Source: Halorubrum halophilum (GTDB lineage: Archaea; Halobacteriota; Halobacteria; Halobacteriales; Haloferacaceae). Taken from it: a DNA stretch of 64,000 nucleotides. Shown here one piece after another: positions 8,561 through 17,048 of the stretch. The stretch's first letter is position 1. Each line of letters opens with the position of its first letter. Under the pieces are notes generated by a model. That model worked only from the letters and a program-made list of their open reading frames with translations, searched no databases and had not been told where the DNA came from. The position numbers and the translations under genes were made by a program. The DNA lies in assembly GCF_000739595.1 (NCBI RefSeq), contig NZ_BBJP01000023.1, positions 62,001 through 126,000 of the forward strand, in the 5' to 3' direction.

Positions 8561-8568
8561 CTTATAAA
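8561..8568 (+). promoter_or_regulatory. TATA box of structured RNA copy 1
   Basis: CTTATAAA sits within GATCGCTTATAAACAAACGG, which is almost identical in copy 3 (16680-16698) and similar in copy 2 (13896-13912). A start about 25 bases downstream would fall at the first stem of the RNA. Confidence 0.55.
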
Positions 8569-8581
8569 CAAACGGTGTGCA

Positions 8582-8865
8582 GTGGCGCGCGCCTCCGAGC
8601 GGCCGCCCTCGGCGGCCGCGAAGGAGCGTCGCGCCAGGGAGTCAGTCGCCCGGAGCAACGCGGAGGGCGACTGACGAGGCTGGGGAGGCGTGAGGTGCGG
8701 TTGCAGTGCGGGGCGGGTGGGACTCAAAGGGGCAGCCGTGAGAACGGCGCAGGCGACGTAAGCACCGCAGGAACGAGCGAAGCGAGTGACGAGGAGCGCA
8801 ACGAGCGTGCGCCGTTCTCGCGGCTGGGGCTTTGGAGGAGTTCGCCGTCGATCCGGTGTCTCCTA
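8582..8865 (+). ncRNA. Structured RNA candidate, copy 1
   Basis: Three stems are separated by conserved single-stranded blocks. Stem 1 is GCGGCCGCC (8599-8607) with GGCGGCCGC (8611-8619), extended by outer pairs CTCC/GGAG and GGCGCG/CGCGCC. Stem 2 is GTCAGTCGCCC (8641-8651) with GGGCGACTGAC (8665-8675), followed by GAGGCTGGGGAGGCGTGAGG. Stem 3 pairs 8733-8751 with 8808-8826 over 19 bases with one G-U, and is preceded by GGGACTCAAAGGGGCAG and followed by CTGGGGCTTTGGAGG. Copies at 13921 and 16704 keep the blocks but change the stem sequences while preserving pairing. I do not recognise the family. It occupies the gap between the cyclodeaminase-family gene and ubaA. Confidence 0.65.
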
Positions 8866-8991
8866 CTTATAAGCGAGCGGCTGGGGCTTTGGAGGTATTC
8901 ACCGCCGATCCACGAACAGCCGCTTATAAGCGATCGACTGCGCCTTTGCAGGTGTTCGTCGCTGGATCGAGGTCAACCACTTATAAACGAC
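8821..8991 (+). repeat. Three tandem 57-bp modules, each ending in a TATA-like box
   Basis: Modules begin at 8821, 8878 and 8935, exactly 57 bases apart, and the first bases of a fourth start at 8992. Each reads roughly CGGCTGGGGCTTTGGAGG, then TTCACCGCCGATCC, a variable part and CTTATAA (8866, 8923, 8980). The first module overlaps the 3' end of RNA copy 1. Divergence rises from left to right, suggesting ageing duplications. The frame across the modules stays open only because 57 is a multiple of three; I do not regard it as coding. Confidence 0.7.
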
Positions 8992-13813: not shown

Positions 13814-13920
13814 GCTCTGTAGAACTCCGTCGCAGTTGAGACAGCGATCCCGGCGGCCACGCTACGATTATTTAAAAGCCCGTGAGCGACAGTGACGATC
13901 ACTTATAAAGAGCAATGCGG

Positions 13921-14100
13921 TGGCGCGTGCCGACGAGCGGCCATCGGCCGCGAAGTCGCACGCGCGAGGGACGCGGTGAGCGCTCGAAGAGCGCGAACCG
14001 CGAGGCTGGGGAGGCGTGAGGTGCGGTACGGTGCGGTTGTGGGTGGATGGGACTCAAAGGGGCAGCCGGCGAGGCGGCTGGGGCTTTGGCGGTGTTCACC
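13921..14100 (+). ncRNA. Structured RNA candidate, copy 2 (compact)
   Basis: It follows a TATA box, CTTATAAA (13902-13909). Stem 1 is GCGGCC (13937-13942) with GGCCGC (13946-13951), with outer pairs CGAC/GTCG and GCGCGTG/CACGCGC. Stem 2 pairs GCGGT...ACCGC and an inner GCGCTC/GAGCGC just before the invariant GAGGCTGGGGAGGCGTGAGG (14002-14021). GGGACTCAAAGGGGCAG (14049-14065) leads into a short stem 3, CAGCC/GGCTG, and then GGGGCTTTGG. Stem 3 is only about 18 bases long here, against 94 in copies 1 and 3, so the long loop arm is optional. Confidence 0.62.
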
Positions 14101-14122
14101 GCAGCACCATCGATCGCTCTCA

Positions 14123-16683: not shown

Positions 16684-16691
16684 CTTATAAA
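16684..16691 (+). promoter_or_regulatory. TATA box of structured RNA copy 3
   Basis: CTTATAAA within ATCGCTTATAAACAAACGG matches the copy 1 promoter nearly base for base, and lies about 20 bases before the first stem. Confidence 0.55.
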
Positions 16692-16703
16692 CAAACGGTG
16701 CGG

Positions 16704-16980
16704 TGGCGTGCGCCTCCGAGCGGGCCATCGGCCCGCGAGGAGCACGCGCGAGGGAGTCGCTGGCGCCGGCGGCGCCAGCGACGAGGCTGGGGAGGCGTGA
16801 GGTGCGGTTGTAGGGCGGTTGCGGCTGGGACTCAAAGGGGCAGTCGCCGAGGGCGGCGGAGGCGACGTAAGCACTGCAGGGAGCGAGTGAAACGAGCGAC
16901 CGAAGCGCGCAGCGAGCGTGCGCCGCCCTCGGCGACTGGGGCTTTGGAGGTGTTCACCGTCGATCTGCCGTGAGCAACCA
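16704..16980 (+). ncRNA. Structured RNA candidate, copy 3
   Basis: Stem 1 is GCGGGCC (16720-16726) with GGCCCGC (16730-16736), with outer CTCC/GGAG and GCGTGC/GCACGC. Stem 2 is GTCGCTGGCGCC (16756-16767) with GGCGCCAGCGAC (16771-16782), a perfect 12-bp hairpin, followed by GAGGCTGGGGAGGCGTGAGG. Stem 3 pairs CAGTCGCCGAGGGCGGCG (16841-16858) with its exact complement at 16921-16938. Pairing is kept with different bases from copies 1 and 2, the hallmark of a selected RNA fold. A loop block, GGCGACGTAAGCACTGCAGG, is shared with copy 1. It lies between the gene at 15997 and a convergent methyltransferase gene. Confidence 0.66.
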
Positions 16981-17048
16981 CCTATAAGCAAGCGGCTGAG
17001 GATTTGGAGGTGTTCGTCGCCGATCCACAGTCACCGATCACGTATTAC
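16933..17048 (+). repeat. Two degenerate TATA-bearing tail modules
   Basis: Units beginning at 16933 (CGACTGGGGCTTTGGAGG) and 16993 (CGGCTGAGGATTTGGAGG) are 60 bases apart and carry CCTATAAG (16981) and CGTATTAC (17041) at the TATA position. A further CTTATAAA occurs at 17076. They match the 57-bp modules after copy 1 but are more decayed. Confidence 0.6.

Follow-up and report, generated by a model that had tools for sequence, protein, structure and literature searches.

The segment at 8561-8865 of the window (the whole stretch of 64,000 nucleotides of Halorubrum halophilum DNA analysed here) is one copy of a structured element that occurs in about four-fifths of the haloarchaeal genomes tested, exceeds 100 copies in two or more of them, and has apparently been neither annotated nor named. 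One strand of this element is selected to fold, and the simplest reading of its sequence is that the folded molecule is most likely RNA. We give even chances to the fuller account, in which this is a non-coding, dispersed, probably non-autonomous mobile element of the haloarchaea that carries a conserved folded strand, most likely RNA, as its payload. The element would rank among the commonest structured non-coding sequences in the Archaea and, as haloarchaeal genetics is practicable, its function is directly testable.

Copy 1 and its relatives in the window are laid out as follows.

8561-8865, + strand: element copy 1, complete long form (model match 8562-8846)
8561-8569, strand unassigned: TTATAA-type box at the 5' end of copy 1, with a similar box ~30 nt past the 3' block
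8584-8635, + strand: stem 1 with apical hairpin (arms 8584-8596 and 8623-8635)
8641-8675, + strand: stem 2, 11 bp (8641-8651 with 8665-8675), ~99% Watson-Crick over n=78 copies
8676-8695, + strand: conserved block GAGGCTGGGGAGGCGTGAGG of the 5' domain, GGYTGGGGAGG in the long forms of other genera
8715-8733, + strand: GGGTGGGACTCAAAGGGGC, three G-tracts and the helix 5' arm CAAAG (8725-8729)
8733-8826, + strand: stem 3 (8733-8751 with 8808-8826), inner motif ACGTAAGCACCGCAG / GAGGAGCGCAACGAG, hairpin 8772-8787
8826-8838, + strand: GGGGCTTTGGAGG, fourth G-tract and the 3' arm CTTTG (8830-8834), partner of 8725-8729
8866-8990, + strand: 3' tail twice in tandem, decaying, each led by CTTATAA (8866, 8923), third box at 8980
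13902-14117, + strand: copy 2, long form, stem 3 shrunk to a short hairpin
16684-16975, + strand: copy 3, complete long form, with one decayed tail copy at 16981-17010

The TATA-like box, stems 1-3 and the three conserved blocks all lie where the earlier note had placed them, and the stem 2 sequences it cited are exact. Its family of three copies is also real, with starts at ~13902 and ~16684 for copies 2 and 3, but stem 3 is nearly gone from copy 2 and the dispersed, mobile-like nature of the family had been missed. Compared with shuffled sequence, the two complete copies of the window have much stronger folds (z -5.2 and -5.3, with 0 of 200 shuffles reaching either).

The long form runs from a TTATAA box through stem 1, GCGAGGGA, stem 2, GAGGCTGGGGAGGCGTGAGG and a G-rich linker of variable length into GGGYGGGACTCAAAGGGGC, stem 3 and GGGGCTTTGGAGGTGTTC, with the second TTATAA box ~30 nt on. 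The inner motif of stem 3 has the form GNCGNAAG-GCACC-GCAG / GA-GGAGC-GCAGCGAG, with a conserved mismatch and an inner hairpin. Other genera commonly have a short form, which consists of the 3' domain alone and at its smallest is GGGACTGAAAGGGGC-hairpin-GGGGCTTTC (locus L284). Tandem repeats of the 3' tail stand behind many copies, and were seen both in Halorubrum, where TTATAA lies between the repeats, and in a different family (L151, L159, L172). That the duplicated tail offers the stem another partner to pair with was rejected, as the tail copy behind copy 3 retains CGGCTG where the stem has CGACTG. One subfamily (L034, L038, L041, L043, L046) shares longer common flanks, TGCAGATCGTCGGTGGC...TATTTAAA upstream and AGCCGACAGCAACACC downstream, and may represent a larger unit or a single replicon.

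A BLAST search with copy 1 recovered at least 39 further copies from the same genome (E < 1e-52, best 40 candidates scored), and a covariance model of the 3' domain gave at least 135 matches in this 3.68 Mb genome and at least 133 in one single-contig relative, in each case among the best 150 candidates scored. These BLAST and model matches show that the element is not a product of chance. Densities in unbiased stretches (16 copies in 284 kb, 11 in 200 kb, 15 in 240 kb and 7 in 140 kb) suggest ~200 copies per genome by extrapolation, and we place the element at roughly 130-200 copies per genome. It was present in all 34 congeners tested; complete copies dominate and lone fragments are rare. 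The 133 copies of the single-contig relative follow Poisson spacing with neither strand clustering nor strand domains (runs test z 0.12), on which grounds replication-strand or clustered insertion was rejected, and the rarity of lone tails led to the rejection of a retro-type 5' truncation.

Across the haloarchaeal class, 232 of 292 genomes and 63 of 77 genera contain the 3' domain. A draw from the phylum gave matches in 45 of 295 genomes, all those listed lying inside the order, and the domain was found in 0 of ~242 genomes outside it. Among the named carriers are Haloarcula, Halobacterium sp. CBA1126, Halobaculum, Halonotius, Haloparvum, Haloglomus, Halorarius, Halorussus, Natrinema and Natronococcus. 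Matches also occur on plasmids, among them those of Haladaptatus and Halomarina, nearly all without annotation over the matched region, and the only named plasmid match of the first search to cover the 5' domain was that of Halorubrum salinarum. The phage records searched held no match, and a viral origin was rejected on that basis.

A comparison with Rfam, proposed in the earlier note, returned no known family: in release 15, at both gathering and permissive thresholds, the element was unmatched and a tRNA was the only match in the window, apart from one chance miRNA match that fell far below threshold. The literature searched contained no description of the element family, though subscription papers were thinly covered, so this absence is weak evidence. 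A halite metatranscriptome has reported conserved, unassigned intergenic RNAs of haloarchaea (PMC7002113). Archaeal MITEs, such as those of Haloquadratum walsbyi (PMC10969869), are similarly short, non-coding, multicopy and intergenic, with terminal inverted repeats shared by a subset of the present copies; the element differs in an interior that is conserved class-wide with compensatory changes on one strand, and in that most Halorubrum copies lack a clear terminal inverted repeat or target duplication. Bacterial REP/BIME-type extragenic palindromes (PMC2817692) are likewise hairpin elements found between genes by the hundred, frequently as inverted pairs, but the fold described here is far larger and multi-domain, with conserved inner loops and G-tracts. 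The intergenic repeats of HF1-group haloviruses (PMC7230728) occur in viruses of Halorubrum and are thought to carry promoters; unlike the element, which is unmatched in the phage collection, they are AT-rich.

The haloarchaeal sotRNA/omegaRNA (RF02656, RF02657; PMC12558985) is likewise a structured, multicopy RNA tied to mobile elements, and kinship with such a guide RNA of IS200/IS605 TnpB would account for a haloarchaeal, multicopy, structured and transposon-linked sequence. Three of 19 RF02656 loci lie within ~400 bp of a copy (G000:C87:43719-44106, C91:75329-75820 and C93:257-650), against ~0.6 expected by a rough estimate. The RF02656 matches are nevertheless separate loci, Rfam scans, even at the permissive E-value, give no match between the element and either sot family, and sequence and structure both differ. 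At the loci examined, copies do not sit at tnpB 3' ends and their neighbours are ordinary host genes rather than tnpB. With the RF02656 matches at other loci, this relationship was rejected as highly improbable.

The case for a selected fold comes from alignments that span the class. RNAalifold predicted 26 pairs from 28 diverse copies, 16 of them with two-sided changes, and a model built from these copies was used to gather 109 copies, all at loci other than those of the training set. Two-sided changes appear in 22 of the 26 predicted pairs of the gathered copies and 95.7% of cells pair, in an alignment that was fitted to the model and is therefore biased towards the structure. None of 500 shuffles of this alignment reached its scores, and pairing fell below 48% when the partner was slid by 1-3 columns. 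The search of haloarchaeal genomes with a covariance model that had been suggested at the outset thus yielded significant class-wide covariation. The compensatory change first read from the three copies of the window had been overstated, as whole stems are exchanged between copies at orthologous loci and the pairing kept among three copies is weaker evidence than it appears; the real covariation is that of the class-wide alignments. The conserved blocks, described in the earlier note as invariant and single-stranded, are present, but parts of them pair mutually (CAAAG with CTTTG, CAG with CTG) and their G-tract pattern had gone unremarked. This partial pairing is indicated by the helix CAAAG/CTTTG of Halorubrum, the counterparts of which covary as GAAAG/CTTTC or GGAAG/CTTCC in other genera.

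The kinds of mispair tolerated in the stems bear on which molecule folds. G.T wobbles outnumber A.C mismatches by 24:6 in one comparison, by 102:20 in the 109 gathered copies and by 20:5 in Halorubrum stems 2 and 3, and this excess points to a fold adopted by just one of the two strands. Single-stranded DNA, if folded, would give the same bias as RNA. RNA stems generally contain a certain level of wobble pairs and, by that yardstick, those of the element are rarer than usual, which counts against the RNA reading. Taken with the class-wide covariation and the empty Rfam result, the strand-specific wobble excess sustains the original claim of a selected fold in an unrecognised family.

The conserved blocks also contain the pattern GGG-Y-GGG...GGGG...GGGG. 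GGGNGGG stands directly before ACT in 71 of 80 Halorubrum copies and in 123 of 140 copies of other genera, and its loop base is almost always T or C. The four conserved G-tracts (GGGNGGG plus GGGG and GGGG) are those expected of a putative RNA G-quadruplex, and the two GGGG runs face each other between two helices. To judge from these motifs, the tracts fit a quadruplex pattern in which the long stem serves as one loop, and a G-quadruplex could form. We put forward, as a tentative possibility, that the element is a class-wide mobile structured archaeal RNA with a G-quadruplex core between two covarying helices, the long stem forming one loop, which is used in molar-potassium cells and exceeds 100 copies in some genomes. 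With such an element, quadruplex-duplex folds would have a natural example in cells rich in potassium.

The earlier note gave copy 1 its own promoter, and on that view the copies would form a family of trans-acting non-coding RNA genes, each transcribed from its own TATA box. The covarying fold and the wobble bias are consistent with a gene family, as is a TATA-type box at a fixed distance (~-14) in 67 of 97 Halorubrum copies, compared to 2.3 in shuffles. However, an equal box lies ~30 nt past the 3' block in 54 of 79 Halorubrum copies, and only 1 of 108 short forms of other genera has a TATA-type box at all. The usual archaeal spacing between TATA box and start would put transcription start inside stem 1. 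The similar TTATAA box at the 3' end and the short forms elsewhere without a box make the promoter doubtful, and it stands as weakly supported. Further, ~130 near-equivalent copies per genome with presence/absence polymorphism would be unusual for a gene, and we consider the gene family unlikely. The short forms without a recognisable promoter, together with their lack of a clear orientation preference relative to genes, are odd for an RNA.

The behaviour of the copies is mobile-like in that they are polymorphic between species, some lie in terminal inverted repeats and many are head-to-head. At the sites orthologous to those of copies 1 and 2, most congeners have no copy, and syntenic stretches contain shared sites beside empty orthologous sites. 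At shared orthologous sites, stems are replaced wholesale and blocks persist; this looks like cassette exchange between copies, as a result of which pairs conserved among the copies within a genome do not count as independent evidence. Terminal inverted repeats (TGTTCAGAT/ATCTGAACA) surround 19 of 135 copies of other genera, Halorubrum copies have only a TTATAA box at both ends, and most copies without the inverted repeats lack defined ends. The empty-site alignments are too diverged to show a target-site duplication at insertion. Adjacent pairs are head-to-head in 22 of 23 instances, with gaps mostly of 22-33 nt. In head-to-head pairs of short forms (L184, L192, L203, L214, L236 and others), the 3' ends face the flanking genes.

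As the vehicle varies and the core is constant, we think that the core itself is selected. For a mobile element with a folded payload, the reading we prefer, a DNA transposase would spread copies in trans and recombination at the conserved blocks would homogenise them. The payload may fold into a potassium-stabilised G-quadruplex (GGG-Y-GGG...GGGG-[stem]-GGGG) enclosed by two helices, and a protein would recognise it in this folded state. Complete copies would persist owing to the conserved fold, given that the vehicle differs between genera and the fold does not. The element could then show a folded RNA or strand being retained while its mobile vehicle changes.

The element is positioned between genes, and nothing is unusual about those on either side (ornithine cyclodeaminase family, ThiF, thermosome, DNA polymerase X, DUF7095 and methyltransferase). 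A number of copies follow closely on a stop codon (-5 to 44 nt), as is also seen at some loci in low-copy genomes, which would suit a role in the 3' UTR or as a terminator of the gene upstream. The upstream gene is co-directional for only 45 of 108 short forms, though, and a U-rich run after the fold is absent, making this role very unlikely.

Gene context also bears on a boundary or topological element acting between genes at the level of DNA, through chromosomal hairpins or a quadruplex and without a functional RNA, which we regard as unlikely. Placement between genes, with convergent gaps enriched for Halorubrum copies (19 of 49 vs 48 of 267), would be expected of such an element. So would the near-neutral orientation of short forms relative to genes and the distance to the unique genes downstream of them, 49-52 of 63 of which begin 84-151 bp after the short form and 0 nearer than 80 bp, distances that are approximate since the gene calls came from a simple codon-usage script. 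A further point in its favour is the occurrence of convergent pairs that enclose a single core gene. Conversely, an excess of G.T over A.C of 5:1 is unexpected for a cruciform, where both strands fold, and the conserved internal loops resemble RNA motifs.

Copies no more than 2.5 kb apart usually converge on one or two core genes that lie between them (L285-L293, L029:8769-10095), as in 8 of 10 close pairs of one relative (P ~0.0004 vs equal chances) and 3 of 4 in this genome. Composite-transposon cargo was rejected for the enclosed genes, which are core genes (CysS, SRP54, Thi4, MsrA and HisA). The msrA gene between two convergent copies (L029:8769-10095; L288, L294-L323) occurs in opposite orientations relative to its right neighbour across Halorubrum species. 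Copies flank it in both orientation states and the left neighbour differs too, so that a simple inversion is a candidate only, and the element may mark sites of gene inversion.
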